A DNA stretch of 36,363 bases from an uncultured Verrucomicrobia subdivision 3 bacterium (GTDB lineage Bacteria > Verrucomicrobiota > Verrucomicrobiia > Limisphaerales > UBA11358), in NCBI GenBank assembly GCA_903888765.1, contig CAISVF010000213.1:1-36363 (forward strand), in the 5' to 3' direction. Below, piece after piece: positions 2,651-23,800 of this stretch. The notes beneath the pieces were generated by a model. It was not told where the DNA came from. It saw only the letters and a list, made by a program, of their open reading frames with translations, and ran no database searches. Positions within the stretch are counted from its first letter, which is position 1. Each line of letters opens with the position of its first letter. A program made the translations under genes and the position numbers.

Positions 2651-5116
2651 TTGGTTGGCTTGCTGGTGTTTTTGTTGGGGGGAATGAGTTTATCGGCTCG
2701 CATGCCACCCGATGCCTCAGATCCGCTCGGATTTTTCAGCGTGGTTGCCGATAAACTGCTGCGGAGCACTTTTAGTTTTGGGGTGACGAATATTCCGGTG
2801 TATGTGAATGGCCAGTTTGTATATACGCCGTCGGTCAACCGGTTATTGCAACTGGCGGCGAACGTTTATGATGCCGGCAACACGAATTATTTTCCCGTGG
2901 TTTTTCGTCCGTGTTTTGGTCGCATAGGCAATGATGTCTTCATCACCGGCTATGAATGGGTGTATTCGTCAGTGCAACTGGATTTTCCGCTGGCGCAAAC
3001 GCCCATGGATATTACCGATCCGCGCGTTGGCACCATTGCGGGCATTAATGTTTTTGGTATCCCGTGGATTATTGGCGCGAAGAAAGGGCTGCCGAATTTT
3101 AATCAACTTGCTTTGGTGAATACGGTAACAGTCACGCGCAAGTTGCAGGTGATCCGTGACAGTCTCAATATTTTCCCTGCAAACTTCCCTGCAAACTACG
3201 TTACCAACCAGATGTATGCGATGAGCATTGGCAACAGCCTCGGAATTTCCTTCTGGAATTCCTACAACAACAGCTATCCGCGCCCGCTCACGATTTACGC
3301 GGCGGATTGGTTGAATGTGACACTAACCAACGCTGCGGCAAGTTGGAAATCAATGTTTAAGTTTGATCTTCCTCCAACGGTTATTCCGGCGTGGCCGGGA
3401 TCGCAATGGAGTGGTTTGCCACCGAATACGACTCCCAATACCGCTTCCTTTTTTGCCACCAATTGGAATTTCACCTTTCTGGCACCTTCGGTTTATCACT
3501 TTGCGACGGCCACATTTGATCCTGTGAATTCGCCCACCGCGCAACAATGGGACCCGCTTTATCCATTACCACAGTTTACGTTGCTGAGCACCAACTACCT
3601 TCAAGCCATAATTTTAGATGGCACCAACGTGATTGATTATGTTCAATTGAAAGGGATTTCCAGTGGTGGAAATCTCAACAGTGCGCTTGCCGACCCGAAT
3701 TATCCGGATGCTTTTAACCAGCGTTATCAGTGGAGTACCAACCAGTTAGCCGGGACTGCACCGAACTGGGGGATTTTGAATCAGATTATGGTCTCAATGG
3801 ATCCAATGCTTTCCAGTGCCCTTTACGGAAATTACTGGGTGCCTCCCTCGGCAACGGCACAAGCGGGTGGCTTTATCTTCCCGGCGGCGGAATCAGCCTA
3901 CTTTAAAGGCTTTTTCACGAAAACCTTCCAATATAATGGAGTAAATTACATCAATTCGGATTTAACTGTGCAAGTGCCCTATACCCCCTCGCGGACGATA
4001 TATAACACCTATCTGTTGCAGGCAAACGATCCGCTGGTGCATTATCTTGCCAGTGATTTAGCTTCACAGCCGGGTAACAGTGCCATTTGGCGCAATGGGA
4101 CGTGGAAAAATGGATATTGGTACCACAGTGACGATCCTGCAATTGAGCCCTTGCCGCAAATTCCTTCCACCTCGGTTAAGGGACGTTACCAGCCATGGGG
4201 ACAAAAGTGGCAAATGGCATCAGCGCCAAATGTGGATACCAACGCTTACAACTGTCTCTTCAGAGATCCCATTGTCTGGAATTCAGATAACTGGAATTTT
4301 CCGAGCAATCTTTTGTTCTCGTTGAATGGACTCGGTCAAGTGCATCGTGGCACGCCTTGGCAAACTATTTATCTCAAGAGCGGTGATATTCTTACCGAGG
4401 GGCCGTTCCCTGGGAATGGTCAGCAGAACATTGGCACCAATACCTGGATGCAATGGACCGGTGACCTGGATCCGGCTGATGCCGGATTAATGGCCCCCAC
4501 GAAAGATTGGCACCTGGCAAGTCTGTTGGCAACGTTGCTGGGTACGAATGACGCAACGCAACTTTTTCCAGTGAACGACCCGAATATAAACGATTGGCTG
4601 AATCTTTTTAATGGCATGGTGGTTTATTCCAATTCCACGACGAGACCTTACTCAAATCATGCACCAGAATTTGATACTTATCAAATTGTCAGCAATTCTT
4701 TGCCGGCTGGGGTCGTGGCCAGCGCTATCCAGCAGGCACAAAGCAAATGGCCGATTCCGCATAGGGCCGATGCAGGAGACATTCTGGCGACGCCAGAATT
4801 GACCATCCATTCGCCTTGGCTGAATACCAATGGCATCCAGTTGGTATATGGTATCAGTGATGCCACCTACGAAGGCATCCCGTCGCAACTGTTGCCCCTA
4901 TTGCGGCCCGATTCCACCGGCCGGTGGCTGGCTACAAATGGTGGCTGGATTTTGCAGTTTTCCGGTTCTGACGCCTTGACCTACGAGGTGCAGTCGTCGG
5001 CTGATTTGGTAAGCTGGCAGAGCATCGGTACGAACCAGCCCGTGCAAGGTCTTTTCAACCTGCCCTATGCTCCTTTGTCGCCTTCCGGATTTTATCGCAC
5101 GCGGCTGGTACCGTGA
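2651..5116 (+). CDS. secreted protein of unknown function, AT-rich gene (821 aa)
   Basis: I cannot assign a function. From the TTG at 2651 the protein opens with a hydrophobic stretch (VGLLVFLLGGMSLSA) that looks like a signal peptide, but without the usual leading positive charge. The frame runs back to a stop at 2567 with no ATG/GTG, and upstream codons include a Lys (NWLKNWG), so the true start may be a rarer codon. The body is rich in Asn, Trp, Tyr and Pro and has no recognisable catalytic motif. From memory, similar proteins (segments like NTNYFPVVFRP, GIPWIIGAKKGLPNF, TRKLQV) occur in verrucomicrobial genomes near pilin-like genes. The C-terminal ~55 residues (YEVQSSADLVSWQSIG ... GFYRTRLVP) match a tail also present on three other secreted proteins here. 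Base composition is lower in G+C than its neighbours. Its 3' end overlaps the convergent MFS gene by 25 nt. Confidence 0.8.
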   Translation: MVGLLVFLLGGMSLSARMPPDASDPLGFFSVVADKLLRSTFSFGVTNIPVYVNGQFVYTPSVNRLLQLAANVYDAGNTNYFPVVFRPCFGRIGNDVFITGYEWVYSSVQLDFPLAQTPMDITDPRVGTIAGINVFGIPWIIGAKKGLPNFNQLALVNTVTVTRKLQVIRDSLNIFPANFPANYVTNQMYAMSIGNSLGISFWNSYNNSYPRPLTIYAADWLNVTLTNAAASWKSMFKFDLPPTVIPAWPGSQWSGLPPNTTPNTASFFATNWNFTFLAPSVYHFATATFDPVNSPTAQQWDPLYPLPQFTLLSTNYLQAIILDGTNVIDYVQLKGISSGGNLNSALADPNYPDAFNQRYQWSTNQLAGTAPNWGILNQIMVSMDPMLSSALYGNYWVPPSATAQAGGFIFPAAESAYFKGFFTKTFQYNGVNYINSDLTVQVPYTPSRTIYNTYLLQANDPLVHYLASDLASQPGNSAIWRNGTWKNGYWYHSDDPAIEPLPQIPSTSVKGRYQPWGQKWQMASAPNVDTNAYNCLFRDPIVWNSDNWNFPSNLLFSLNGLGQVHRGTPWQTIYLKSGDILTEGPFPGNGQQNIGTNTWMQWTGDLDPADAGLMAPTKDWHLASLLATLLGTNDATQLFPVNDPNINDWLNLFNGMVVYSNSTTRPYSNHAPEFDTYQIVSNSLPAGVVASAIQQAQSKWPIPHRADAGDILATPELTIHSPWLNTNGIQLVYGISDATYEGIPSQLLPLLRPDSTGRWLATNGGWILQFSGSDALTYEVQSSADLVSWQSIGTNQPVQGLFNLPYAPLSPSGFYRTRLVP

Positions 5117-7453: not shown

Positions 7454-8848
7454 ATGTTTTCATCCGATATTAAAACTGTCCATTTCACTGGCATTGGTGG
7501 CACAGCGATGGCCGCAGCGGCGGCAGCCGTGCTGGACAAAGGCTTTCAAGTCACCGGCTCTGATCAGAATGTTTACGAGCCCATGGCCTCGTTTCTCAAA
7601 TCAAAAAACATTCCTGTGAGCAGTTTCGACGAGCGCAACTTGGCTTCGCGGCCCGATCTCGTGGTCATCGGCAACGCCATCTCGCGCGGCAACTCCGAGG
7701 CGGAATATGCCCTGGATCACAAACTGCGTTATTGCTCGCTGCCGGCGCTGCTAGCCGAATTTTTCATTCGCGGCAAACGGTCATTGGTGGTTAGCGGCAC
7801 GCACGGCAAAACCACCACGACGAGTTTGTTGACCTGGGTGTTTGAGCACAACGGATTGAATCCCAGCTACCTCATTGGCGGCATCCCCAATAATTTTGCG
7901 CAGGGCGCGCGCTTCACGGACAGCGAATGGTTTATCATTGAGGGCGATGAATATGACACCGCGTTTTTTGACAAGCGCAGTAAATTCATCCATTACCAGC
8001 CGGAGGTCGCCATCATAAATAACCTGGAATTTGATCATGCGGATATTTTTGAAAATCTGGATGCAATCAAGAAAACCTTCAGCCATTTCATCCGCCTCGT
8101 ACCGCGCAATGGCCTCCTGCTGGGCAATGGGGATGACGATAATCTGACCTCGCTCCTGAATGTCACCCATTGCCCGGTCAAACGGTTCGGGCTGGGCTCA
8201 GCCAATGCCGTGCAAGGTTTCAATCTGCGGTTTGGACCTACCGCGACCGAATTTGAAATCCCCAGCTTCAAATTTCATCTCAATCTGGTGGGCGAATTAA
8301 ATGTCCGCAATGCCCTGGCGGTGATCGGGGCTGCCAAGCATTGCGGCCTATCCAACAAGCAAATCCAATCCGCCTTCGACACGTTTAAAGGCATCAAGCG
8401 GCGGATGGAGGTGAGGGGCATCGCCGGCGGCATTACGGTCATTGATGATTTTGGTCATCATCCAACCGCCATCCGCGAGACGCTTCGGGCGCTGCGCTTG
8501 CGTTATGGTCGGGAAAAAATCTGGGCGGTATTTGAGCCGCGCAGCAATACTACCCGCCGTAACGTGTTTCAGGATGAACTGGCGGCTTCCTTTGCGGATG
8601 CCTCGGCGGTGGTGGTGGCTGCGGTCGCCCGGTTGGAACAAATCGCGCCCGAACAGCGCCTCAGTCCGGAAAAACTGATGCAGGATATACAGGCTTCCGG
8701 CAAAGCGGCAGCCTATCTGCCGGACGCCAATGCCATTGTCGCCCATCTTGCCAAACACGCCCAAGGTGGCGAGGTCATCTGCATTTTCAGCAATGGCGGG
8801 TTCGATGGCATTCACGGCAAATTGCTGGAGCGGCTTAACCGCCTGTAA
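7454..8848 (+). CDS. mpl: UDP-N-acetylmuramate:L-alanyl-gamma-D-glutamyl-meso-diaminopimelate ligase
   Basis: Mpl recycles peptidoglycan in the cytoplasm: it uses ATP to attach the recovered tripeptide L-Ala-D-Glu-meso-DAP to UDP-MurNAc. The 464-residue length fits the family (E. coli Mpl is about 457). Visible signatures are the N-terminal nucleotide-sugar loop HFTGIGGTAMA (10-20), the Mur-ligase P-loop GTHGKTTTT (115-123), the Mpl-type segment EGDEYDTAFFDKRSKF (163-178), NLEFDHADIF (190-199), and a C-terminal domain with DDFGHHPTAI. The DEYDTAFFDKRSKF stretch separates Mpl from MurC. The ATG at 7454 gives the expected N-terminus; no Shine-Dalgarno sequence precedes it. It stands alone: the gene upstream is divergent and the one downstream is convergent. 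It implies a DAP-containing wall. Confidence 0.95.
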   Translation: MFSSDIKTVHFTGIGGTAMAAAAAAVLDKGFQVTGSDQNVYEPMASFLKSKNIPVSSFDERNLASRPDLVVIGNAISRGNSEAEYALDHKLRYCSLPALLAEFFIRGKRSLVVSGTHGKTTTTSLLTWVFEHNGLNPSYLIGGIPNNFAQGARFTDSEWFIIEGDEYDTAFFDKRSKFIHYQPEVAIINNLEFDHADIFENLDAIKKTFSHFIRLVPRNGLLLGNGDDDNLTSLLNVTHCPVKRFGLGSANAVQGFNLRFGPTATEFEIPSFKFHLNLVGELNVRNALAVIGAAKHCGLSNKQIQSAFDTFKGIKRRMEVRGIAGGITVIDDFGHHPTAIRETLRALRLRYGREKIWAVFEPRSNTTRRNVFQDELAASFADASAVVVAAVARLEQIAPEQRLSPEKLMQDIQASGKAAAYLPDANAIVAHLAKHAQGGEVICIFSNGGFDGIHGKLLERLNRL

Positions 8849-9106: not shown

Positions 9107-12100
9107 TCAATGCTCGATAATCCGGTAATAGCACGCGGCTCCTTTGGTCGCTTTATCGAGCAGCATTAATGTGCCGTTCGTCAGGCTTGGTGCTCCGGGC
9201 AGCGTCACCCAGTTCACGAGGTTGCTGCTGGTCTGCACCTCGAAATTCACGAGGTCCGCTGGCGCGGGCGCTCCGCCGTCGGCGTCGGTCGAGGACAGGA
9301 GCAACCAGCCATTGGGTAACAATTTAGCCGGCCCGAGGACTTGCGGTACGCGCACTTTTACGATGGCGTTGCTGCTGCTGTTGCTCCCGCTGGCATTGGT
9401 GATAGTCACAAAATAAATTCCACTTTGTGCGCGTCCGACGTTGTTCAAAATGAGCGTGGGGCTGTTGCTGCCGATGATGTTTCCATTCTGCCGCCATTGA
9501 TAGGTCGGCGGCGGGTAACCGCTGGCTGCGACGCTTAACTGTACGGTCGTGCCCATGTTTGCCGTCTGGCTCACGGGCTGCAAGGTGATGGCTGGCGCGC
9601 CAGAGAGGGTTAGCAATGCCGGCGCGCTGGTCACGCTGTCAATCAGGTTGGTGATGATTACCGAATAAACGCCAGCGTCGGATGCTTGCACGTTGGCCAG
9701 GATTAGGGTGGCGGTGGCGGACCCGGCGATGTTGGCGCTATCGGTTAGGTTCGCTCCGTTTTTTCGCCACTGATACCCCAAAGCCGGCGCGCCCAGAGTA
9801 GTTACGGTGAAGTTCACCGTCGTGTTGGTCGCCGCCGTTTGATTGCCTGTTTGTCGGATGATGTACGGAGACCCGTCGTTTTGGATGGCTAAAAGATGTC
9901 CGTTACCTCCGGAAATAGCCACCACATTGGTCAAGCCGGCAGCCACGTTGGTCTGTTCGTAAGAGTTGTCACCCCATGCCGTCAAGGTGCCGTCGGCTTT
10001 CAGCGCGACGCTTTGGTCGCCGTCCGCCGTGATGGCCACCGCGTTGGTGAGGTCGCCGGGCACATTGGTTTGCCCGGAACCGTTGTATCCCCACGCCGCC
10101 ACGCTGCCGTTTACTCGCAGGGCCATGCTGTGGTTATTGCCGGCGGCAATCGCCACGGCATTTGTCAGTCCAGCGGGCACACTGGTTTCACCGTTGCCAT
10201 TATATCCCCAGGCAACGACGATTCCGCTGGCTTGCAACGCCAGGCCGTGATTATCACCGGCGGCAATCGCCACTGCATTCGTCAATTCCACAGGCACATT
10301 GGTTCGGTCAAAGCTATTGTCTCCCCAGGCTGTTACCGTGCCATCGGTGTGGATTGCCAGGCTGAAAAATTCACCGTCGGCAATCGCCGCGATGTTCGTG
10401 AGCCCCTGAAAACCGTTGGTTGTCCCATTGCTGCTGGTTCCCCAGGCCGCCACCGTACGGTCGGCTTTTAAGGCCAGGCTATGACTTTCACCGCCGGCGA
10501 TGGCCAGCACGTTGCTCATTCCAGCCGGTACATTGATTTCGCCCCAGACGTTGTCTCCCCAAGCCATCACCGTTCCGTCGGTTTGGAGAGCGAGACTGTG
10601 AGTGTCGCCGGCGCTGATCGCGGTGACGTCCAATAACTCGGGCGGCACATTGGTTTGGCCATTATAGTTATTTCCCCAGGCGATCACGCGTGTCCTCGTC
10701 ACGACCAATCTGGCCATAGAACTGGCGGCGGAACCGATCGCATTGGTCGCCACGATGCAATAGGATCCGGCGTTGGCTGGTCGCACATTCGTGAGATTCA
10801 ACACGGCATTGGTGGCTCCATCGAGATTCGTCCCGTTGAACTGCCATTGATATGTGATCGGCAATGTCCCGGTGGCGGTTGCCTCGAATGTTGCCGTTGT
10901 GCCGACAAACTGAACTGAACTGGTCGGTTGGCTGTTAATGACCGGTGGACCGTCAATCACCGCCAGCACCGCCGGCGAACTCGTAATGCTGCCGTAATTA
11001 TTGGTGATAATGACCATATAGGCCGCGGCGTCATTTTCTTGCACATTGGTCAGGGTCAAGCTGCTGGTTGTCGATCCTCCCACATTGCCGCCATCTTGCA
11101 GCGATACGCCGTTCTTTTGCCACTGATACGTCAGGGGCGACGCGCCGGTCGCGATTACCGGGAATGTCACCGCTGTTCCTGCGTTATTAGTGGCGCCCGC
11201 AGGCGACGTGACCATGACCGGCTGGCCGTTCAATACCGTGAGCGACGCCGGTGAACTGGTCGCGCGCCCACCGAGATTGGTGACAATCACGGAGTAATTG
11301 GCGGCATCCGGATAATCAATCGGGTTTAAGGTGAGAATCGAACTGTTTGCACCCGACACGTTGCCACCGTTCACCAGAACTGTGCCGTTCTTTAGCCACT
11401 GATAGCTCAATGGCGCCGTGCCGGTGGTGGTCACGCTAAAGGCAACTGCCGAGCCTTGATAATTCGTCAGGTTCGACGGCTGATGTGTAAGGTTCGGCGG
11501 GGCGGTGAATGAAAACTGATCCACAAATCCGGCATCAAGTCCCGAATCAAATGTGGGATCTTTTGCATAGTGCCATTGCAAGACGTTTGTGCCGGCGGCT
11601 ATCGGAAAACTGGCCTGTTGCCAGTTCACCTCGCCGGAAATGACGACTTGCACATTGCCGTTGATGCGGAAATCTAGCGTGTCAAAAAATTGTTCCGAGG
11701 AAACTTTCCACCAGAACGTCACATTGCCGGCGACATTGGTGACGAGTGTTGTTGTCAAGTCACTGCTTTGGGAGCCGCCGATGCCGCCGCTGCGTGCCGC
11801 GGAAACGCCGTCATGAGAGTAATTCGTCTGACCATACCATGGCGTGGCTCCGGTACTGGTCCAGTTCAACCAGGAGCCGATGGAATAAGCGCCATTGCTG
11901 TAGGTGGCATTGGTGGTGTTCAGCGCGATACCCAGGGGAATGATCACGGAAAGCTTCGCGTATTTGCTCACCGTTACTCCGTAGGCATTGCTGGCAGCGA
12001 GTTGGTAAACACCCGAGGCTAGCGGTTGCCAGGCTCCGGTGATCAAACGGGTCGCGCCAATTACTAAGGTGTCGTTCGTCGCCGCCGGAATATTGGTTCC

Positions 12101-15100
12101 GTTAGCCTGCCATTGATAGGTGACCGGCTGTACGCCGACGCACTTGCCGGAGAACCACACGCTCGTTGCGGTATTGGCAATCGTTCGGTTCCACGGTTGC
12201 ACGGTAAACTTCGGCGTGCGCGTGCCGAGTAGCGCGAAATCGTGGTCGCCGCCGCAGGCAATTTGGGCGACATTGGTCGTGTCCGCTGGCACCGAGTTGG
12301 AGGCGAGGCCAGAATAGGCGCTTCCCCACGAAACCACGGTGCCGTCATTTTTCAATGCGGTGACGTGCGTACCCGAGGCGGAGACCGCCACCACGTTGCT
12401 CAAGTTGGCCGGCACCTGATATTGAATAATGCCGCTGCCCCATTCCATCACCTTGCCGTCCGCGCGCAAGCCGACGCTGAAATTGTTGCCGGCAGCAATG
12501 GCCACGATGTTCGTGGTCAACGCCGTGACCAAAGTGTCTGGATAGCCCCAGCTCACGACGCTGCCATCGGCACGCAGCGCCAGGCTGTGCGAGGTGCCGG
12601 CCGCAATCGCGACGACGTTGGTGGCGGCAGGATTGTTGGTCGCCTGCCCGTAAACCGGCGCTTGCAAGGTGTCGCCCCAGGCAACGACTGTGCCATCTGA
12701 TTTCTGTGCGAGATCGTGATAACCGCCGCAGGAGATGGCGGTAACCCCGCTCAGGTTTGATGGTGCATTTGTCTGCCCATAGCCGCCATAGCCCCAGGCA
12801 TATACTGTGCCATCCGATTTCAGTGCCAGGCTGTGCTGATATCCGGCGGCGATGGCCGTAATGGTGTAGTTAGTTAGGGCCGAAACCGTCGCTTCACCAT
12901 AGTATGATGTGCCATTGGCCCAGGCGGTCACCTTGCCATCCGCGCCCAGCGCCAGATAATGGCTCGTGCTCACGCCGGCTGAACCGCCGGTGGCCACAGC
13001 GACGGCGTTAGTCACGTTGACCGGCGGATTACTGACCGCATTGTAGCCCCAGGCGCGGGCGAACCATACCCGGACATTCACCGGTGCGCTGGTTACGCCG
13101 CCCACGAGATTGCTGGCCGCGAGGTAATAATTTCCCGAGTGGTACGCCAATGCGGGATCCATCGTCAGCACCGGGTTCGTCGCGCCGGCCATGGCTGTGT
13201 AATTTTTATTCGTCGGCGAGAAGAACCATTGGTAATTCACCGGGCCGCTGCCCTGCACCGTTAGGCCGCCCACGGTGAACTTGCCGGCCTGATACAAATT
13301 CGTGGTGGAGGCTGTGATCTGACTCAAAATCGTCAGCGGTGCGATAATGACATTCACTCGTGCCGGCAGACTGATCGTGGTGCCGAAAGCATTGCTCGCT
13401 AGCAACTGATAGCTTCCCGCGTTGGCCAGCTGGATGTTGGGCAGGGATAGGCTTGAATTGGTGGCGCCGGCAAGATTCGTGCCATTTAGCAGCCATTGAT
13501 AACTCAGGGGTGCAGCCCCGGCGACGCTGGCTGGCAACAATACATCGCGTCCCGTGTAAGCGGTGAGGCCGACGGGCGGTTGTAAAATTTGCGGGCTGCC
13601 GTCATTCAATAGCGCGAGGCCGTGGAGCGGTGCGGCGCTGGCTGCCACCGTGAACCAGTGGTTCAGTGTGGCGGGCGGATTGGTTTCGCCATTCGGGCTG
13701 TCGCCCCAGGCAACCACCGTTCCATTGGAGCGGACCGCCAGGCTAAAGTTGTAGGAGCTGGTCAGGTTTTGCGCGCTCGCATAAACCGCCGCGATGTTGG
13801 TCAAGCCGGCGGGCAGGTTGGTGCCGCTGCCGGTGCCCCAGGCGACCACGGTGCCATTGGCTTTTAGCGCGAGGCTGTGCGTCAAGCCGGCCGCGATGCC
13901 GTTCACACCCGCCAAACCCGCGGGAACATTGGTGCCCGCACCCGTGCCCCACCCGATAACTGTACCGTCTGTCCGCAAGGCGAGCGAATGGGTATAGCCA
14001 CAGGCAATCGCCGTGGCGTTGTTTGCCTTGGGCGGCACGGAGCTGTAGGGGGTCGTTCCCCACCCGATAACGGTGCCGTCCGTCCGTAGGGCTAGACCGA
14101 ATGAATTTCCACCCATCGCCACGGAAATGATGTTGGTCAGCGCCGGCAGTGCCGTCCCATTCCACCCGACGACCGTGCCATCGGCCCGTAGCACGGCCGT
14201 GGCACCGTTGGCTGATGTGGAAATGGCAATGACATTGGTGGCGTTGGCCGGAATCTTCGTCACATTCGACGCGCCGCTGCCGCCCCATGCCACCACGTTG
14301 CCATCGGCCCGCAGGGCAAAGCCCGCGCCGGAGGTTCCCGCGACGGCCACCACTTGGCTCAAATTGGGCGGCGGCAAGGATTCGTTGTTTAAGTTCCTGC
14401 CCCAGGCGGCGACTGGCCCGTAGGTCAACTGGGCATCAGTACTACTGACCGTTCCGACGGAGTTGCTGGCGAAGAGATGGTAAAAGCCAAGATCGTTGCT
14501 GCCGACTGTGCTGGCGGTGTAGTTTGTGCCGGTCGCGCCGGGTATATTGGTGCCATTCAATTGCCACTGGAGGCTCGGCGTCGGGATTCCCGTCGCGCTG
14601 GCGTTGAAGGTTGTTGGCATCCCCGGCGGCACCGAGCGTCCCACCGGTTGCACGGTGATCACAGGTGGCACCAGCACTGTCAAACTGGCGATAGCGCTGT
14701 TGTCCGAGCCGGAGATATTATTTACGTGCAGGGTATAATTTCCCGCGTCCGCCGTGGTCAGGTTGGAAATGCTCAAGCTGTTGGTGGCGGATCCGGCCAG
14801 GTGGATGCCATCGTCCGTCAGTGGATTGCCATTGGAGTACCATTGATAATTGTAGGGTGGGGTGCCTGTCACGCTGACCGTGAAAAAGACATTGGAACCG
14901 GTCGTAGCGGTCTGGCTGATCGGTTGTACTGTTATGACGGGCGGCAAAATAATCGGCGTCAGCATCGCCACGGAACTGGTCGTGACCCCGACGATGTTGG
15001 AAGCGACCAGTTGGTAATTGCCGCCATTGTTGGTTTGTACATTGGCAATGGTCAGGCAGGCGTTCGTGGAACCGCTGATGCCGCTGTCGTCCGTAAGCGG

Positions 15101-18100
15101 CGCGTTGTTGAAATACCATTGCAGGGACATTGGCAGGCTACCGGAAAGGCTCGTGGCGAAACTCGCGTTGCTGCTTACAATCACGGCGGTGTTGGTCGGC
15201 TGTATGGCAAATGTCGGCGGGGTCAGATGGTTCAGGTGCAGCACTAGGTTGCCGGCATCTGAACTGTAGCCGCCGGCGAGAATGAAATAAGTCATGCCAG
15301 CTAGAGTCGGCAGGCTGATTTGTGAAGTCACACCGCCGCTGTCATCGTTGCATGCCAGTTCGGTCAGCGTATCGCAGGAGCCGGTGTATAGCGCCAGTCC
15401 GGTGTCGAAGTCGCTGCCAAAGGTATCTACGTTGAGCCGGCCGCTGGCTGGGGCGGTGAATTGATACCATACGCCGTGACCGAATCCATCCACGCAATCG
15501 GGCAGGGGATCGCCCCATGCGCTGGCCCGGAGTGTGGATTGAAGGTTGGTGGTGGCGGCGTTGGTGATGGCGATGGCTCCGCTGCACAAATCGTTGGCCA
15601 CGGTGTCGATCACCTTCAGCGTCATCGCCGTGCTCATCGCGGTGCCATTGGCGTTGCTGACCAGACAGATGAATTTGCTCCCGGAATCAGCCAGTTGCGC
15701 ATTGAACAGGGAGTAACTGGAATTGGTGGCAGCTAAAATCAAAGTGCCGTTTCGCAGCCAGAAATAATTCATCGGCGCGGAGTTGCTCGCCGTGACACTA
15801 AAGGTCGCCGTGCCGCCGAGCAGTACCACCTGATTCGGGCTTTGCGCCAGCATGACTGGCGGTGCCGGTGGTACAATCACCGTGAGCACTGCGTTAGAAC
15901 TCGCTATCGATCCGGCGGCGTTGGCCACCACCACGGCATAGCTGCCAGCCTGCGCCGGTGTGAGATTGCTCAAAATGAGCGTCGCGTTGGTTGCGCTTGC
16001 CAGATTGGTGCCGTTGTAGCTCCATTGATAATTCAACGGGGTGGAACCGCTGGCGACGACGTTTAAAACCGCCGTGCCAGTGGCGGTCACGGTCAAATTG
16101 GTTGGCTGGGTGAGGATGGTTGGAGGCACCAAGGGTAAGCCGAACGGTGTGACGTTCTGGTAAATCTGGAGGGTCGAATCATAGGCGTTGCAAAAAACCA
16201 CATCTGGACGGCCGTCGCCGTCCAGATCGCCGGCCGTGATGCCCCAGGCGTTCCAGCCCGTGCCGAAATCCGCGCGCGGCGCGAAAGTGCTGGTCGTGAA
16301 ATTGCCTGGCGTGCTGGTGTTTTGAAAAATGGACAGGTAACTCGGCAATTCACCGACCACGCCGAGGTCCGGCTTGCCGTCGCCGTTGAAATCCGCCACG
16401 GTCACGGTGTGGGCCCAGCCGGGCGTGCCAAAATCTATGCGTGGGGCGAACGAGTTCGTGGTTAGTAAGCCACCTTGGCTGACGTTTCGAAGCAGACCAA
16501 CCGAATTGTTGAGGATCGAACCAACCGTTAGATCCAATTTACCGTCGCCGTCCAGATCAACGGCGGCAATGGTTTGTACTTCGGTACCCGCTGGCAGGTC
16601 AAACGCGGGCAGGAATGAATTGGTGGCGATGACCCCGGCGACGGTGCTGTTTTGAAAAATGGAAACCGTGCCGCTGTCCGAATTCACTGCGGCGAGGTCC
16701 GGTTTGCCGTCGCCATCCAGATCCGCAATGGCGAGTTCATACGGTCCGCCTGGTGCGGTAAGCCGCACGGCCGGTGCAAAGGAATTGGTCGTCAGGCTTC
16801 CCGGGACACCGACATTTTTGAACAGGGAAATGCTTTTAGCCCCATAATTTAGCGCTACAACGTCTGCGCGTCCATCGCCGTCCAGATCGGCGGCGGTGGC
16901 AAAACGGCAATCGCTGCCAGCCACTAGGGCAAAGGCGGGGTCGAAGGAATTCGTCGTGAGGGTGCCCGGCGTGGCGAGGTTGTGAAAAACCGAGACCCGG
17001 TTGCCATTAATCTCGCAGGCGATCAAATCCAGTTTGCCGTCGCCATCCAAATCCACCGCCCGGATGCGGTAGGGATTGCCGCTGATGCCACTGGTCGGAA
17101 AAGCTAGGTTTACCACCGGGGCAAATGAGGCTGCGCCGAGCACCGTGCCATTTGTGCTGAGGTTTCGGAATATGGAAAGGACCTTTCCATCGCCGCAAAC
17201 CAGCGCGAGGTCCGGTTTGCCATCACCGTCCAGATCGGCAATGACGCAGGATCCCGGTCCGCTACCCGTGCCTAGGTTGAAGCTGGGGGCAAAGCTGCCG
17301 GCGCTGATGGGCGCACCGGTGCCCGGAAATGTCGGTTCAAAAAATGCTCCCGATGCTGTTGCCAAACCGCCGACGTTGACCGTTATCGGGCCGAATGTCG
17401 CGCCGGGTGGAACTGCCACCGCCAGATTGGTCGGATTGGCGGCCAGCACCGGTGCCCGCACGGCTCCAAAATAGACCGTGTTTGCCGCCGCGCTCTCGCT
17501 GAAATGGGTTCCACTGATGCTTATCGTTGTTCCATTGGTGCCGGCCACGGGCGAAAAACTCGTGATGACTGGCACCGCGGCGGCGACGGAGGAGCATTTG
17601 CCCGCGCTGCCGGCGTTGTTGATGGCTGCAATTTCGCTCGCAGACAGTGCCCGATTGTAGATCGAAAGCTCGTCGATGATTCCGCCGAACATGGAGAGAT
17701 AGGGTGTCCACGTGCCCGAGGTTCCGATGAAAATCGGCGTGGTGTCGTAATCCAGCGCAAAGCCGGGTGTCGCCGTCGCTTCCAGCACGCCATTGACATA
17801 CAGCTTGGACTGGTTGCCGTCGTAAGTTGCCGCAACGTGATACCAGACGCCCCGCTGCGCGATCGTCAGGGAATTGATGGGGACTTGATTGCCAAAGCGT
17901 GAGACGCAAAACTGGAAGCGGTCCGAATAGGTTCCATCCCCGTTGTCGATGGTTGTTTTCAGCAGGCTGTAACCCTCAAACCACGCGGCCCAAGTGTTTT
18001 TCTTGAATACAATTTGCTCGCCGCCATTATGGGCGGGCAGGCTGGGGTCGAGCCAGACCCAGACCTCGCATGTGATATTGGCCGGTTTAAGCGCGTCGGA

Positions 18101-18361
18101 ATCGGGGATTTGCGCGTAACCGTTGGTTCCATCAAAACGAAAACCCCATCCCACTTTTCCCGGCGCAAAAGTCGCGCCGCCTTGCAAAGTCCCGTGGTGG
18201 GCAGCCGCAATGTCATTTGCGTTGCCTTCCCCCGGCCACCAAGCGACCAAGCCGACCGCTGGCGGCGTGCAGGGCGACCCTTGCAATGGCGACGTGGCAA
18301 CAAATAACGCCGCCAGCAGGGCTAAGCCGCTTCCAGAGGTGAAATGGAGGAACCTTTTCAT
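9107..18361 (-). CDS. giant multidomain surface protein: LamG, IPT, FG-GAP, Ig-like and RCC1-like repeats (3084 aa)
   Basis: An uninterrupted 9.25-kb gene. The ATG at 18361 gives a clear signal peptide (MKRFLHF then a hydrophobic core to about residue 28); AAGAG lies 8 nt upstream. Approximate order: LamG-like lectin fold 36-250, IPT/TIG 262-340, seven FG-GAP/VCBS repeats 367-735, two Ig-like domains, a PPC-like sandwich 920-1043, three Ig, seven RCC1-like repeats 1313-1597, two Ig, seven RCC1-like 1767-2052, one Ig, a sandwich domain 2143-2290, three Ig, seven RCC1-like 2555-2832, two Ig, and a C-terminal module 3009-3084. The DxDGDG motifs of the FG-GAP repeats should bind calcium. No catalytic domain, sortase motif or membrane anchor is visible. 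A cell-surface adhesin or matrix protein is inferred from architecture. It has its own 261-nt upstream gap, so it is probably transcribed separately. Confidence 0.85.
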   Translation of the reverse strand: MKRFLHFTSGSGLALLAALFVATSPLQGSPCTPPAVGLVAWWPGEGNANDIAAAHHGTLQGGATFAPGKVGWGFRFDGTNGYAQIPDSDALKPANITCEVWVWLDPSLPAHNGGEQIVFKKNTWAAWFEGYSLLKTTIDNGDGTYSDRFQFCVSRFGNQVPINSLTIAQRGVWYHVAATYDGNQSKLYVNGVLEATATPGFALDYDTTPIFIGTSGTWTPYLSMFGGIIDELSIYNRALSASEIAAINNAGSAGKCSSVAAAVPVITSFSPVAGTNGTTISISGTHFSESAAANTVYFGAVRAPVLAANPTNLAVAVPPGATFGPITVNVGGLATASGAFFEPTFPGTGAPISAGSFAPSFNLGTGSGPGSCVIADLDGDGKPDLALVCGDGKVLSIFRNLSTNGTVLGAASFAPVVNLAFPTSGISGNPYRIRAVDLDGDGKLDLIACEINGNRVSVFHNLATPGTLTTNSFDPAFALVAGSDCRFATAADLDGDGRADVVALNYGAKSISLFKNVGVPGSLTTNSFAPAVRLTAPGGPYELAIADLDGDGKPDLAAVNSDSGTVSIFQNSTVAGVIATNSFLPAFDLPAGTEVQTIAAVDLDGDGKLDLTVGSILNNSVGLLRNVSQGGLLTTNSFAPRIDFGTPGWAHTVTVADFNGDGKPDLGVVGELPSYLSIFQNTSTPGNFTTSTFAPRADFGTGWNAWGITAGDLDGDGRPDVVFCNAYDSTLQIYQNVTPFGLPLVPPTILTQPTNLTVTATGTAVLNVVASGSTPLNYQWSYNGTNLASATNATLILSNLTPAQAGSYAVVVANAAGSIASSNAVLTVIVPPAPPVMLAQSPNQVVLLGGTATFSVTASNSAPMNYFWLRNGTLILAATNSSYSLFNAQLADSGSKFICLVSNANGTAMSTAMTLKVIDTVANDLCSGAIAITNAATTNLQSTLRASAWGDPLPDCVDGFGHGVWYQFTAPASGRLNVDTFGSDFDTGLALYTGSCDTLTELACNDDSGGVTSQISLPTLAGMTYFILAGGYSSDAGNLVLHLNHLTPPTFAIQPTNTAVIVSSNASFATSLSGSLPMSLQWYFNNAPLTDDSGISGSTNACLTIANVQTNNGGNYQLVASNIVGVTTSSVAMLTPIILPPVITVQPISQTATTGSNVFFTVSVTGTPPYNYQWYSNGNPLTDDGIHLAGSATNSLSISNLTTADAGNYTLHVNNISGSDNSAIASLTVLVPPVITVQPVGRSVPPGMPTTFNASATGIPTPSLQWQLNGTNIPGATGTNYTASTVGSNDLGFYHLFASNSVGTVSSTDAQLTYGPVAAWGRNLNNESLPPPNLSQVVAVAGTSGAGFALRADGNVVAWGGSGASNVTKIPANATNVIAISTSANGATAVLRADGTVVGWNGTALPALTNIISVAMGGNSFGLALRTDGTVIGWGTTPYSSVPPKANNATAIACGYTHSLALRTDGTVIGWGTGAGTNVPAGLAGVNGIAAGLTHSLALKANGTVVAWGTGSGTNLPAGLTNIAAVYASAQNLTSSYNFSLAVRSNGTVVAWGDSPNGETNPPATLNHWFTVAASAAPLHGLALLNDGSPQILQPPVGLTAYTGRDVLLPASVAGAAPLSYQWLLNGTNLAGATNSSLSLPNIQLANAGSYQLLASNAFGTTISLPARVNVIIAPLTILSQITASTTNLYQAGKFTVGGLTVQGSGPVNYQWFFSPTNKNYTAMAGATNPVLTMDPALAYHSGNYYLAASNLVGGVTSAPVNVRVWFARAWGYNAVSNPPVNVTNAVAVATGGSAGVSTSHYLALGADGKVTAWANGTSYYGEATVSALTNYTITAIAAGYQHSLALKSDGTVYAWGYGGYGQTNAPSNLSGVTAISCGGYHDLAQKSDGTVVAWGDTLQAPVYGQATNNPAATNVVAIAAGTSHSLALRADGSVVSWGYPDTLVTALTTNIVAIAAGNNFSVGLRADGKVMEWGSGIIQYQVPANLSNVVAVSASGTHVTALKNDGTVVSWGSAYSGLASNSVPADTTNVAQIACGGDHDFALLGTRTPKFTVQPWNRTIANTATSVWFSGKCVGVQPVTYQWQANGTNIPAATNDTLVIGATRLITGAWQPLASGVYQLAASNAYGVTVSKYAKLSVIIPLGIALNTTNATYSNGAYSIGSWLNWTSTGATPWYGQTNYSHDGVSAARSGGIGGSQSSDLTTTLVTNVAGNVTFWWKVSSEQFFDTLDFRINGNVQVVISGEVNWQQASFPIAAGTNVLQWHYAKDPTFDSGLDAGFVDQFSFTAPPNLTHQPSNLTNYQGSAVAFSVTTTGTAPLSYQWLKNGTVLVNGGNVSGANSSILTLNPIDYPDAANYSVIVTNLGGRATSSPASLTVLNGQPVMVTSPAGATNNAGTAVTFPVIATGASPLTYQWQKNGVSLQDGGNVGGSTTSSLTLTNVQENDAAAYMVIITNNYGSITSSPAVLAVIDGPPVINSQPTSSVQFVGTTATFEATATGTLPITYQWQFNGTNLDGATNAVLNLTNVRPANAGSYCIVATNAIGSAASSMARLVVTRTRVIAWGNNYNGQTNVPPELLDVTAISAGDTHSLALQTDGTVMAWGDNVWGEINVPAGMSNVLAIAGGESHSLALKADRTVAAWGTSSNGTTNGFQGLTNIAAIADGEFFSLAIHTDGTVTAWGDNSFDRTNVPVELTNAVAIAAGDNHGLALQASGIVVAWGYNGNGETSVPAGLTNAVAIAAGNNHSMALRVNGSVAAWGYNGSGQTNVPGDLTNAVAITADGDQSVALKADGTLTAWGDNSYEQTNVAAGLTNVVAISGGNGHLLAIQNDGSPYIIRQTGNQTAATNTTVNFTVTTLGAPALGYQWRKNGANLTDSANIAGSATATLILANVQASDAGVYSVIITNLIDSVTSAPALLTLSGAPAITLQPVSQTANMGTTVQLSVAASGYPPPTYQWRQNGNIIGSNSPTLILNNVGRAQSGIYFVTITNASGSNSSSNAIVKVRVPQVLGPAKLLPNGWLLLSSTDADGGAPAPADLVNFEVQTSSNLVNWVTLPGAPSLTNGTLMLLDKATKGAACYYRIIEH
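9870..10695 (-). repeat. RCC1-like repeat block C, seven units with exact 117-bp period
   Basis: Seven units of the pattern AWGxNxxxxTNVPxxLTNxxAIAxGxxHSLALxxDGxV. The conserved CCCC of the Trp-Gly codon region falls at 9972, 10089, 10206, 10323, 10440, 10557 and 10674, exactly 117 bp (39 codons) apart each time. Seven units would close one beta-propeller. This block is more regular than the other two in the same gene. Confidence 0.85.
12205..13060 (-). repeat. RCC1-like repeat block B, seven irregular units
   Basis: Seven AWG/SWG/EWG-type units (starting at ARAWGYNAVS and ending at VVSWGSAYSG) of varying length, with the same DGxVxxWG and HSLAL signatures. They would form a second complete seven-bladed propeller between Ig-like domains. 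Confidence 0.75.
13570..14425 (-). repeat. RCC1-like repeat block A, seven units
   Basis: Seven units from VAAWGRNLNNE to VVAWGDSPNGE, each with a GxWG (or GWN) start and an xALRxDGTV end. They close a third seven-bladed propeller. The units are less regular than in block C. Confidence 0.75.
16150..17260 (-). repeat. FG-GAP/VCBS repeat block, seven calcium-loop units
   Basis: Seven copies of D(L/F)(D/N)GDG(K/R)xD at intervals of roughly 165-185 bp. In order they include IADLDGDGKPD, AVDLDGDGKLD, AADLDGDGRAD, a second IADLDGDGKPD, a second AVDLDGDGKLD, VADFNGDGKPD and AGDLDGDGRPD. The loop is the calcium site of integrin-type seven-bladed propellers. Confidence 0.85.
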
Positions 18362-18622: not shown

Positions 18623-19201
18623 CTACCGGAATTCCACCTGTTCGAAGCCCGCGCGTTTAAAGAAGTTTTCCAGTTCTGTCTGTCCGCGCTGGTTTGCTTC
18701 CGTCAGAATATTGGCCTTGCGTGCCGCCAGTGTGATTTCTTTCACCGCATTCAGGCGCGCGGCCTGTTCCAGATCCTTGTCAAAAGCCCGGAGCAGCCCC
18801 GTGGAATGATCAATTACCCGGCTTGCTCGATCATCGAGATAAACATCGGTGATTTGCGCTGGCGGCAGCCGCAGGGAAATCTTTTTGCCAGCAATAGAAA
18901 CATCCGTGGCTTGCAGGCGATGCAATTCCAATCCCGCCTTGACGATGCCATGAGCCAGCAGCAGCACCCGGCTTTCGCCATACCATTTTACATCCTCCAG
19001 CACCACTACCTTGTCGAGGACGTATTTGACTGTCACGAGGTCTGAGAGCGACTGCACCTCATGAACCACGGTAGTCGTATCCCAGAAAAACCGGCTGCCG
19101 CCACTATCCAGTCGGCGAAATCCATAAACTCCCACCGCTGCCACCAACCCCAGCAACCCTACCGCCGTTAGCGTCCATAACACATTGCGTAATTGCTGCA
19201 T
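18623..19201 (-). CDS. DUF4230 family protein, membrane-anchored (192 aa)
   Basis: The ATG at 19201 is preferred over a TTG at 19240; it gives the N-terminal anchor (LWTLTAVGLLGLVAAVGVYGF, residues 8-28, split here only by its short charged flanks). The rest matches the DUF4230 pattern as I know it: an early beta-rich part (VHEVQSLSDLVTVKY), a hydrophobic strand with HGIVKAGLEL, the segment VSIAGKKISLRLPPAQITDVYLDD, and a helical end with ANILTEANQRGQTELENFFKRAGF. The function of the family is unknown; the fold is expected outside the cytoplasmic membrane. It lies 82 nt downstream of the response-regulator gene on the same strand and could be the last gene of that transcript. There is no clear ribosome-binding site. 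Confidence 0.8.
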   Translation of the reverse strand: MQQLRNVLWTLTAVGLLGLVAAVGVYGFRRLDSGGSRFFWDTTTVVHEVQSLSDLVTVKYVLDKVVVLEDVKWYGESRVLLLAHGIVKAGLELHRLQATDVSIAGKKISLRLPPAQITDVYLDDRASRVIDHSTGLLRAFDKDLEQAARLNAVKEITLAARKANILTEANQRGQTELENFFKRAGFEQVEFR

Positions 19202-19283
19202 AGCGGAAAGGTAAAACCATTTTGCCCCCTTGCAAAGCAATGTTCACATCTGTTTGGCGAGGCTTTATCCTCGTCGGTGTTTT

Positions 19284-19973
19284 TTAGAATAGCCGTTCCT
19301 TGAGGGCCTTGGCGACCGCGCCGGTACGGGTGTGGACGTGCAGTTTGGTGTAAATGTTCCGTAAATGTGTGTCGATGGTGTGATAGCTTAGGGACAGATG
19401 GTCGGCCACTTCCTTTTTGATCAGGCCCTGTGTCATCAGCTCCAGAATTTTCTGCTCGCGCGAGGTCAAGCCATAATCCTGCTTCGGCTGAGCCATTTTG
19501 GAAAACATTTGCAGTACGGAACCCGCCACGCGCGGCGTCATCGGTGCCCCGCCAGCGAGCGCCTCGTGGATAGATTCCACGATCCGCTCCACCGGCGAGG
19601 TCTTAAGCAGATAGCCGGAGGCACCGGCGCAGATGGCCTTGAAAACTTTTTCGTGGTCGTCAAACACCGTAAGCATCACGACGCGGGTGGACGGCGAGAT
19701 GGATTTGATTTTTTGCACCGCCTCAATACCGTTCTGGCCCGGCAGTTCCACATCAAGCAACAGCACATCCGGCACCCCCCCGCCCAGCATGGCGTCAAGC
19801 GCATCCTCCGCGTTGGAGAAATGCTGCGAACATTCAATACCCTCAACGCGGCTCAAAACACGCGCGACCGTGTTTCGAAACGCATGGTTATCCTCCACAA
19901 GCCAGACGCACACCGGCGGCCGGCTGGCTATGCGCACCCCGGCTGGCTTGGCGGTTCTGATCAATTTTTCCAT
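19284..19973 (-). CDS. NarL/LuxR-family response regulator (229 aa)
   Basis: A standard two-domain regulator. The receiver domain covers about residues 21-140, with the acidic pair Glu27-Asp28 in WLVEDN, the phospho-acceptor Asp74 in LLLDVELPG, Thr102 in MLTVFDD and Lys124 in YLLKTSP. A LuxR-type helix-turn-helix follows at 168-225 (LTSREQKILELM ... KKEVADHLSLSYHTIDTHLRNIYTKL). A basic N-terminal extension of about 20 residues precedes the receiver; the ATG at 19973 is the only good start. The gene lies 68 nt after the histidine-kinase gene, so the kinase is its probable partner. It should bind DNA as a phosphorylated dimer; likely targets are promoters in this block, but no operator was identified. 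Confidence 0.93.
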   Translation of the reverse strand: MEKLIRTAKPAGVRIASRPPVCVWLVEDNHAFRNTVARVLSRVEGIECSQHFSNAEDALDAMLGGGVPDVLLLDVELPGQNGIEAVQKIKSISPSTRVVMLTVFDDHEKVFKAICAGASGYLLKTSPVERIVESIHEALAGGAPMTPRVAGSVLQMFSKMAQPKQDYGLTSREQKILELMTQGLIKKEVADHLSLSYHTIDTHLRNIYTKLHVHTRTGAVAKALKERLF

Positions 19974-20041: not shown

Positions 20042-23000
20042 TCACGGGATGGGTGCGGTCAGGGTAATGGTGGTACCGTCGCCAGGTGAACTCTCAATTT
20101 TCAGGTGCCCGCCGATTTCCTGCGCACGACGCTTCAAGTTTTTGAGGCCGTTGCCGGAACTTTTGGCTCCGGGATGGAAACCGACACCGTTGTCCTGCAC
20201 GCGAAAGGTAAATTGTTTTTCCAGCCGCTGAATGGAAATCTGCACCTGCGTGGCGCGGGAATGTTTCAGCACGTTGTGCAAGGTCTCCTTGAACAGGGGC
20301 GGCACATTGCGGCGAAAGCTCAGGGGCAGGTTGGCGGAACGAAAATCCCCGGATTGCTCGAACTGGCAGGCGATGGTGGCCAGCATCACTCGGGCCGTCT
20401 CTTGCAAGCGTGCCACCAGGTCGCTCAACTTATCATGCGTCGGGTCAATGAACCAAATGATGTCGCGCAGAGTATCGATGGTTTGTACCGCCAGGCCGCG
20501 CACCTGCGTAGCGTCGGCGCTGGACGGGCTTTGCTCCATGATTTGGGCGAGCAGGGAAATACTACCAAGATTTGCTCCGACCTCGTCGTGCAAATCGCGG
20601 GCGATGCGCAGGCGGAGGCTTTCCATGGCCCGCAAGCGCGTAATGCGGACAGAATAAATCGTCACCAGCACTGCCACGATGCCGAGGCCAATTGCCAGTT
20701 TGAACCACCAGCGTTGCCAAAAATAAGGCAGGACGGTGAGTTCCACGGTGGCGGGAGACTCGCTCCAGACACCGTCATTGTTGCAGGCCAGAGTTTCGAA
20801 CCGGTAACTGCCCGGCGGGATGAAGCTATAACTCGCCGCGCGGCGGTTGCCACCATCCACCCAGTTTTTTTCGAGGCCGGCCAGCCGCCATTTGAATTTC
20901 ACCTTGTCAGGCGCGGTGAAACTCAAGGCGCAAAATCTGAATTCGAAATAATGTTGTCCGGCGGCGATGCTGATTTTTTTGGGGAGTTCGACAGACGGCT
21001 GTGACGCGAGCACGTTTTTTTCGGCGAGGCTTTTGCCATCTACCAACACTTCCTCGACCCGCACCGGCGGCGGCAGACGGTTCGGCCGCAACATCGCCGG
21101 GTCCACCCACACCGCACCCTTAACGGTAGCGAACCAGAGGTGCCCGTCGTGACTGCGCCAGCAGTTGGGCTGGGAACCGCCGGAACATTCAAGCGTGGGC
21201 AGGCCATCGAATTTTCCGTAGGTCACACAGGTTGGCAGCACTTTTCCGCCGTCGGCAAAATCGTTCAGTTCACGCTTGCTCACGCGGACGATGCCGACGC
21301 GGGTGCCGAGCCAGAGGTGGCCGTTTCCATCCTCCAAAATCTGACTGACGTATTCACTCGGCAAATCATCACGCGTGGTGAAACGCGTAAATTGCCCATC
21401 CTTGAACCGCAGCAACCCGCCGCCGAGCGCGCCGGTCCATAACACGCCCTCGTCATCCGCGTACAACGCCCAAAACCGCTCGCCTCCGGTCTGCACGCCG
21501 AGGCTGCGGTTCTGACTGGGTTTCTCGCCTTCCGCTGCCGTCGCTGCCGCCGCTGCAATCTGCGGATCCGTGGGACTGTCCTTGGGCCAGTAGCTGGTAA
21601 ATTTTCCATTCTGGTAGCGGCGCAATTCGCCGAGCGCCGTGCCGATCCAAAGATTGCCTGTCCTGTCCTCCGTGATGGCCGTCACATACGCCGGCGTGAA
21701 ACCATCCGCCGCCCGAAAGCGTTTCAACCGGCCTTGTTCCCAGCAAAATAAGCCAAATTCGCCGCCGAGCCAGATTTTATCGGCCTTATCCTTGTAAATG
21801 ACCCGCGCCACTGTGCCAATATCATCCGCAGGAAACGGGCGGGCAAACTTTTCAGCTTCCAGCGTCACCACCCCGTTCTGCACGCTGCCCACCCACAACC
21901 GCCCCGCAGCATCCGGACAAACCGTAATTTCGCGCCCAACGGTTTTTTCAGTCGGCGGAATGAAGTTGGTGAACTCGCCGTTGCGCCAGCGCAGCACCGT
22001 ATCACCGGAAGTGCCGAACCACATCACCCCCGCCTGATCCTCGCAAACCGAACGGGCTGCCGCAGTCATCACCCCTCTCGGCGGCCAGACGGTGTGAAAT
22101 GCCCGCACCCGCACGCAGGCCAGACCACCGCCGTTCAGCCCAAGCCATACGTTGCCCTCGCGATCTTCAAACCAGCATTCCACGAGGGCGTTGGGCAGCC
22201 CTTGCGCCTCGCCCACGTGTGAAACCTGGCCATCCGCACCCACATGCCACAACCCGTCGCCGTAATGTGACACCCATAACCCACCGCGTGAATCGGCATA
22301 AATACTCCGCTTTGCGTGTCCCAAGGGGCTGGTGGGGAAGGAGGCTGACCGCAATCCCGGCCCATCCCAGGATTTCACCCGCGCCACCCACTGCCGGCCC
22401 CGGCATTTCCGCAATTTATTTTCTGCCCACACCCACAGCGACCCGTCCGGGCAAGTAGCGATTTGTTGCACCCGCAAATCCGGCTCGCCATTCGTCGGCG
22501 TCAGATTTTCAAACTGTTTGCCATCCCACCGTGCCAATTCCTTGTCCGTGCCGACCCAGATTTGACTGGTCACATCAGTGGCGAGCGTGTTGATCCGCAG
22601 GCTGCGCAATCCCGGCGGCTCTGGCATGGGTATGAACTGATTGTTGCAAACCTGACCGAACGATCCGTCATATAATCGATACCAAATCACGCCTCGAGCG
22701 TCGGCACAGAGAAAAGCGCCAGAGTCAGAAACCGGCGGTTTGATCGTGTCCCAGTGATTGGTCTCGCCGACGCGTGTCCCGCGAAACAGCCAGCCGCTAA
22801 TGGAGGACAGCACCACGGAATTGCTGTCAGACGAAAGCACACTGCCCAGCCAGGACTGCGGCATTTCCGGACTTATCTGCTCAAAGCGAAACCGTCCGTC
22901 GCGTAAAGAACTCAACGCCCCTATCACCGTGTCCACCCACAGCGTCCCCTGCGAATCCACCAATACATTTTGGATTTCCATTGACCGCAACTCCGGTGTG

Positions 23001-23275
23001 TTGCCTGGATGAAAGTTCACAAACCGCACGCCATCAAACCGCGCCAGTCCGCCAAACAAGGTACCGATCCACAAGTAACCGTCCGGGGTCTGCGCGATGC
23101 TGCTCACCGAACTGTGCGGCAGACCGGAATCCGTGTCCCACACCTGCACGACAAAATCATCCGCAGACTCCGAATATTGCCCAGCACCCGCTGACCACAC
23201 GAGGGCCGAGAGAATCAGGCAAATCAATTTCAATGGGAATGTCAGTGGATTGGTAATTTGGCGGGAAACTAGCAT
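20042..23275 (-). CDS. sensor histidine kinase with Reg_prop propellers and Y_Y_Y domain (1077 aa)
   Basis: A transmembrane sensor. A signal segment (about residues 15-32) is followed by roughly 760 residues with 14 recognisable Trp motifs of the type GxLWxGT, enough for two seven-bladed propellers. A Y_Y_Y domain follows at about 770-860 (FEFRFCALSF ... PPGSYRFETLACN), then a transmembrane helix in WWFKLAIGLGIVAVLVTIY. The cytoplasmic part is HisKA_3 with phospho-acceptor His896 in RDLHDEVGANLGS, and HATPase_c with N-box ETLHNVLKHS (Asn1001) and G-box DNGVGF (from Asp1028). In Bacteroidetes this sensor layout occurs in hybrid systems that detect oligosaccharides; here the receiver is not fused but is the next gene. 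The gene begins 52 nt after the PA14/GH43-like gene. Ligand is unknown; a glycan fragment is inferred. Confidence 0.92.
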   Translation of the reverse strand: MLVSRQITNPLTFPLKLICLILSALVWSAGAGQYSESADDFVVQVWDTDSGLPHSSVSSIAQTPDGYLWIGTLFGGLARFDGVRFVNFHPGNTPELRSMEIQNVLVDSQGTLWVDTVIGALSSLRDGRFRFEQISPEMPQSWLGSVLSSDSNSVVLSSISGWLFRGTRVGETNHWDTIKPPVSDSGAFLCADARGVIWYRLYDGSFGQVCNNQFIPMPEPPGLRSLRINTLATDVTSQIWVGTDKELARWDGKQFENLTPTNGEPDLRVQQIATCPDGSLWVWAENKLRKCRGRQWVARVKSWDGPGLRSASFPTSPLGHAKRSIYADSRGGLWVSHYGDGLWHVGADGQVSHVGEAQGLPNALVECWFEDREGNVWLGLNGGGLACVRVRAFHTVWPPRGVMTAAARSVCEDQAGVMWFGTSGDTVLRWRNGEFTNFIPPTEKTVGREITVCPDAAGRLWVGSVQNGVVTLEAEKFARPFPADDIGTVARVIYKDKADKIWLGGEFGLFCWEQGRLKRFRAADGFTPAYVTAITEDRTGNLWIGTALGELRRYQNGKFTSYWPKDSPTDPQIAAAAATAAEGEKPSQNRSLGVQTGGERFWALYADDEGVLWTGALGGGLLRFKDGQFTRFTTRDDLPSEYVSQILEDGNGHLWLGTRVGIVRVSKRELNDFADGGKVLPTCVTYGKFDGLPTLECSGGSQPNCWRSHDGHLWFATVKGAVWVDPAMLRPNRLPPPVRVEEVLVDGKSLAEKNVLASQPSVELPKKISIAAGQHYFEFRFCALSFTAPDKVKFKWRLAGLEKNWVDGGNRRAASYSFIPPGSYRFETLACNNDGVWSESPATVELTVLPYFWQRWWFKLAIGLGIVAVLVTIYSVRITRLRAMESLRLRIARDLHDEVGANLGSISLLAQIMEQSPSSADATQVRGLAVQTIDTLRDIIWFIDPTHDKLSDLVARLQETARVMLATIACQFEQSGDFRSANLPLSFRRNVPPLFKETLHNVLKHSRATQVQISIQRLEKQFTFRVQDNGVGFHPGAKSSGNGLKNLKRRAQEIGGHLKIESSPGDGTTITLTAPIP

Positions 23276-23327: not shown

Positions 23328-23800
23328 TTAAGGTCCCAATTGCACACGGTAGAGTTTCTGGTTGTAATTGTGCAAGTTGGGATCGGTGAACGTGAACGGC
23401 GGCGAGGCCGCTGCATTGGTTATGATCGGCAACCAACCAGCCGGCCGCGTCACATTGGTGGTGATTTGCAAAATATAATCCGGCCCGGCGACCCCGTTGA
23501 CCAGCACCGAAAAAGTATTGAGGCCCAATGCCGGGCTGACTAACGACGGAGCCGGCGGTGGCATCACCGTGACCATGAAACTTTGCGTTGTGACTAGCGG
23601 CGGCATGCCATAGTCCGTCACTCGCACGACAATCATATTGGTAGTGGCTGACTGGCTGATGACTGGCCTCCAGGATATGGCTCCCGAGACTGGATTGATC
23701 GTCATGCCCGCCGGGGCGGACAACAAGGAATAACTGAGGCGTAGCGGTGGCAAGTTGGGATCGGTCGCGTGGACCGGCAACTTCAGCGAGATTCCCGCAG
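23328..23800 (-). repeat. 3' copy of duplicated Ig-plus-tail module
   Basis: The last ~155 codons (DPNLPPLRLSYSLLSAP ... ISWRPVISQSATTN ... GPDYILQITTN ... LYRVQLGP) are clearly homologous to the end of the preceding gene at 26949-27440, including matching DNA around the stop codons. This indicates domain duplication or recombination between neighbours. Confidence 0.75.

Follow-up and report, generated by a model that had tools for sequence, protein, structure and literature searches.

Several described systems come close to the protein considered in this study. BLIP-II (PDB 1jtd, 3qhy) is a single free domain of about 270 residues which inhibits beta-lactamases, and its seven blades are made of short repeats of the RCC1 type, each about 39 residues long. 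For propellers of the RCC1/BLIP-II type, the view has been put forward that amplification from single blades continues (PMC9218822). The integrin-alpha-type or FG-GAP propellers (PF13517, PF01839) are likewise built from seven repeats, and bacterial cases are on record (PMC3192720). Lastly, the C-terminal domains of Type IX secretion in Bacteroidota (PMC5445135, PMC10202324) are conserved domains that occupy the extreme C-terminus of many exported proteins per genome.

Our window, the whole stretch of 36,363 nucleotides that was analysed, comes from an uncultured Verrucomicrobia bacterium and contains a gene whose product recalls all of these at once. It is a single ORF with an ATG start and encodes a modular protein of 3084 residues. 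Like BLIP-II it has blocks of seven short RCC1-type repeats, but it combines three such blocks with Ig domains and an end-domain in one chain. In Pfam the protein is matched by RCC1_2 (PF13540, E=2e-92), FG-GAP_3 (E=5e-47) and Ig_3 (E=2e-118). Its features are listed below with the evidence for each.

9107..18361 (-): whole gene, modular protein of 3084 residues (ORF and Pfam)
18275..18361 (-): N-terminal stretch up to about residue 29, probably a signal peptide (by eye, MKRF followed by a hydrophobic run)
17627..18133 (-): Laminin_G_3 or ConA-like domain, residues 77-245 (Pfam, E=4e-24)
17351..17572 (-): IPT/TIG domain, residues 264-337 (Pfam, E=1e-10)
16148..17260 (-): FG-GAP block of seven repeats, modelled as a seven-bladed propeller, residues 368-738 (Pfam, repeat count, AlphaFold2, Foldseek)
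15278..15598 (-): PPC or galactose-binding-like sandwich, residues 922-1028 (Pfam, slightly below the cut-offs)
13595..14413 (-): RCC1 block A of seven repeats, residues 1317-1589 (repeat count, superposition on BLIP-II)
12218..13060 (-): RCC1 block B of seven repeats, residues 1768-2048 (repeat count, sequence match to BLIP-II)
11507..11854 (-): spacer lacking an Ig motif and resembling a beta-sandwich, residues about 2170-2285 (by eye, no Pfam match)
9869..10687 (-): RCC1 block C of seven repeats of exactly 39 residues each, residues 2559-2831 (repeat count, BLIP-II at E=7e-41)
9338..11059 (-): cassette of one Ig domain, block C and two Ig domains, approximately residues 2435-3008 (comparison with orthologues, left edge within about 60 residues)
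9110..9334 (-): unnamed C-terminal domain, residues 3010-3084, shared by about 80-100 proteins of the same genome

From Pfam and a further search, 13 Ig-like domains were counted, two of which, near residues 1085 and 1270, were recognised by eye. The count agrees with the preliminary description, which was made from the letters of the sequence and had proposed about thirteen Ig-like spacers together with LamG, PPC-like and other sandwich domains. The LamG and TIG domains are clear in Pfam, while the PPC assignment stands on two matches, PPC (7e-5) and GBD_T9SS_assoc (1e-5), both slightly below the Pfam cut-offs. It had also reported that no enzyme domain was visible, and no enzyme family was recognised by Pfam in the 3084 residues.

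We lean towards reading the giant protein as a modular binding protein that is exported and probably sits on the cell surface or in the surrounding matrix. A Sec-type signal peptide would take it across the inner membrane, and the Ig-like, LamG, TIG and PPC-like domains would then form an extended chain which spaces four seven-bladed propellers. The faces and loops of these propellers may bind glycans or proteins, the FG-GAP propeller would probably hold up to seven calcium ions, and the last 70 or so residues, an end-domain that occurs throughout the lineage, may direct the final sorting or the attachment to the surface. The preliminary description had pictured a long extended adhesin with four binding heads; adhesion, anchoring and a ligand are what we infer for the protein.

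The FG-GAP block is the part whose fold is best defined. Its D-x-[DN]-G-D-G motifs start at residues 376, 437, 492, 547, 602, 657 and 712, which gives seven repeats. The block was modelled by AlphaFold2 with nine homologous rows, and the model (pLDDT 89.7, pTM 0.90) shows 28 strands arranged as seven four-stranded blades, so that at the level of a predicted structure the block is a seven-bladed propeller. Foldseek matched the model to the propellers of integrin alpha, CRTAC1 and KICSTOR, with integrin alphaV at E=1e-8. The loops are conserved across nine orthologous FG-GAP blocks, and calcium binding by the seven of them is plausible from their sequence. The likeness to the integrin-alpha type lies in the seven repeats, the loop and the confident seven-bladed model. 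On the other hand, the motif counted here is looser than the integrin motif of PMC3192720 and, unlike integrin alpha, the giant protein has neither an integrin partner nor a membrane anchor.

For the three RCC1 blocks, the repeats were counted singly and gave 7 in A, 7 in B and 7 in C. BLIP-II is their nearest relative in sequence among solved structures: all three match it, block C with E=7e-41. The AlphaFold2 model of the A-B segment is weak (mean pLDDT 55.7, pTM 0.40), and its B half did not resolve. Within this low-confidence model, block A, at model residues 3-277, superposes on nearly the whole of BLIP-II, from residue 39 to 311 (Z 31.1; 253 residues of 1jtd_B, rmsd 1.9 A), and Foldseek gave a TM of 0.84 over the BLIP-II chain. 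In this model, of low confidence as a whole (pLDDT 56), block A thus takes a closed, seven-bladed, BLIP-II-like fold, and the sequence matches support blocks B and C as propellers of the RCC1/BLIP-II type. The preliminary description had proposed four closed seven-bladed propellers. The FG-GAP propeller is borne out by a confident model and block A by the superposition of a low-confidence one, and for B and C the proposal stands on sequence.

The nearness of blocks A-C to BLIP-II, a secreted seven-bladed binder (PMC9218822), also suggests another role, in which the giant protein is secreted and free and acts as a soluble inhibitor or decoy in the way that BLIP-II acts on beta-lactamases, with the Ig chain contributing merely size. 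We consider this rather unlikely. BLIP-II is a single domain, whereas here there are four propellers, 13 Ig domains and an end-domain positioned like a sorting signal, and a common fold tells nothing about the target.

The preliminary description had drawn attention to the exact number of repeats, seven in the one FG-GAP block and in each of the three RCC1 blocks, and our counts one by one agree (7/7/7/7). We compared this number with that in related loci. Repeat profiles were built from the giant protein and enlarged with repeats of the related loci, and the repeats were then counted per block. Seven repeats were found in 61 of the 67 interior RCC1 blocks and in all 17 FG-GAP blocks; since the loci were picked by similarity to the giant protein, these rates hold for its kin and not for all bacteria. 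The six RCC1 exceptions were counted automatically at 3, 5, 6, 6, 8 and 8 repeats and are irregularly spaced, which suggests missed or split repeats. Such rates are expected from the known seven-bladed folds of both families. As repeats, the blocks of the giant protein are far beyond chance, and seven per block is the norm of the family.

A special mechanism of counting or selection in the giant protein could be invoked for the sevens, as all four of its blocks hold seven repeats and its orthologues differ by whole sevens. We regard such a mechanism as highly improbable and rejected it, since seven is the rule across the related loci. At a rate of 91% per block, all three RCC1 blocks would have seven repeats in about three cases out of four, and the closure of a seven-bladed ring suffices as the explanation.

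Orthologues of the giant protein were found within the same genus, and the named records of its relatives are metagenome-assembled genomes of Limisphaerales or Verrucomicrobia subdivision 3. The arrangement of blocks varies among them. Orthologue L069 carries two FG-GAP blocks and no block C, while L073 is without an FG-GAP block and shows two additional RCC1 blocks. A single FG-GAP block together with A and B is present in L070, L071, L072 and L075. Every complete block in the dissected orthologues consists of seven repeats, and the orthologues differ by complete seven-repeat blocks, which is the outcome anticipated in the preliminary description when it proposed to follow the gain and loss of blocks among homologues. 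In eight orthologues whose C-terminus is complete, the end-domain follows directly on the Ig region near residue 2377-2434, and the cassette of about 570 residues with block C is missing. One orthologue (L076, also L116) is split in two frames (in L076 at 4328 and 6820; 856 and 889 residues) between A and B, by either a frameshift or an assembly error.

The history of the blocks was followed by a register test, in which the identity between two blocks was evaluated at the seven possible cyclic shifts. When A and B were compared with their ten best counterparts, the identity at shift 0 was 0.55-0.76, against 0.41-0.49 at the next shift. This preference indicates that A and B were inherited as whole propellers, blade for blade. 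For block C, no cyclic shift stood out in comparison with each of the 65 other blocks. It was either amplified separately or has lost its register, and the register test does not separate the two. Such a history is in line with the view of PMC9218822 on continuing amplification from single blades. The internal similarity of block C is 0.52, compared with 0.41-0.43 for A and B; higher internal similarity and the lack of a blade register are shared with the repetitive propellers of PMC9218822 and are as expected under separate amplification. The recent cases of that study are near-identical, whereas the blades of the giant protein are 35-67% alike within a block, and A and B are mature. When A, B and C were compared with each other, no cyclic shift stood out, and the idea that they are recent copies of one another is unsupported for lack of a cyclic register between them.

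The surroundings of the gene bear on a further explanation. A DUF4230 gene (18623-19240, -) lies upstream, and a gene for an Mpl-like Mur ligase (7454-8848, +) lies downstream and is convergent with the giant gene. The DUF4230 and convergent Mpl genes flank the giant gene in several orthologues too. Since Mpl is a murein peptide ligase, this adjacency, together with the highly repetitive all-beta build, could point to a structural role in the envelope or matrix, similar to that of an S-layer or a cell-cell glue, in which the propellers bind their own copies or envelope polymers and not outside ligands. However, the Mpl gene lies outside the transcription unit of the giant gene, and the adjacency may reflect shared ancestry of the locus alone, and the rapid turnover of modules among related species suits a variable outward binder better. 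We therefore give a structural role a low probability and retain the exported binding protein as the preferred reading.

Other neighbours were also considered. A histidine kinase with Reg_prop and Y_Y_Y domains (20042-23275, -), which is another propeller-type protein in the window, is followed by a LuxR-type response regulator (19284-19973, -). This pair is not kept beside the orthologues examined, except that the kinase has a weak match in L072/L111. Genes of GH16 and GH106 also neighbour the giant gene, and none was found beside the orthologues examined. A link to these glycoside hydrolases was dropped for this reason, and a polysaccharide ligand is left with no genomic support.

The last 70 or so residues of the giant protein resemble the ends of three other proteins in the window and of many proteins in related loci. 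The copies in the window are as follows.

9110-9334 (-): end-domain of the giant protein
4919-5113 (+): end-domain of another window protein
23331-23552 (-): end-domain of another window protein
26952-27173 (-): end-domain of another window protein

A profile was built from 15 protein ends, and its search against this genome gave 102 matches with an E value of 0.01 or less and 79 at 1e-4. In the best 30 loci, 28 carry the end-domain motif searched for. The distance from the motif to the stop is 3-6 residues in 26 of these, 10 in one and 269 in one; the profile and the motif come from protein ends, so that a C-terminal position is favoured by the choice of motif, while the genome search was not limited to ends. 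In a set of 20 end-domain proteins that are whole or nearly so, a simple hydrophobicity rule gave a plausible signal peptide for the majority of the proteins whose start is complete. The end-domain is present in 57 of the 58 Limisphaerales genomes sampled, with up to 92 matches each, and in 31 of 115 genomes across the phylum. Two genomes outside the phylum gave 0 matches, a sample of two that carries little weight.

No family of Pfam or NCBIfam fits the end-domain, as none was matched by more than one of the 15 members (E=0.1), and the comparison with solved structures returned two weak matches, with E values of 0.013 and 0.07. We found no described Verrucomicrobia end-domain like it in the literature, mainly that outside subscription. 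When compared to the C-terminal domains of Type IX secretion, the end-domain is of similar size, is conserved, lies at the extreme C-terminus and is carried by many exported proteins per genome, but it differs in having no match in Pfam or NCBIfam. A Type IX secretion substrate was rejected, since the end-domain fits no known T9SS family in these two collections. A search for SprA gave no match in the genome, and the control genomes were equally silent. Exosortase (PF09721) has four matches in the genome, on contigs C246, C1, C236 and C249, which indicates that a sorting route of the PEP-CTERM type also exists there.

From its spread and its place at the C-terminus, the end-domain is a candidate sorting signal. 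Going further, we tentatively suggest, with somewhat more doubt than trust, that it is a so far undescribed domain for sorting or attachment in Verrucomicrobiota, carried by tens of exported proteins per Limisphaerales genome and served by an export or anchoring machinery of its own.

The locus offers a clean single case in which propeller modules are swapped as whole sevens and two of the blocks have been inherited with their blades in register, and its value in this respect is modest. The propellers add new members to families already known, and what could be new is the end-domain. If the end-domain acts as a sorting signal, it would mark a large share of the proteins that a mostly uncultured and poorly known order secretes or carries on its surface, and the export route of that order would become testable.
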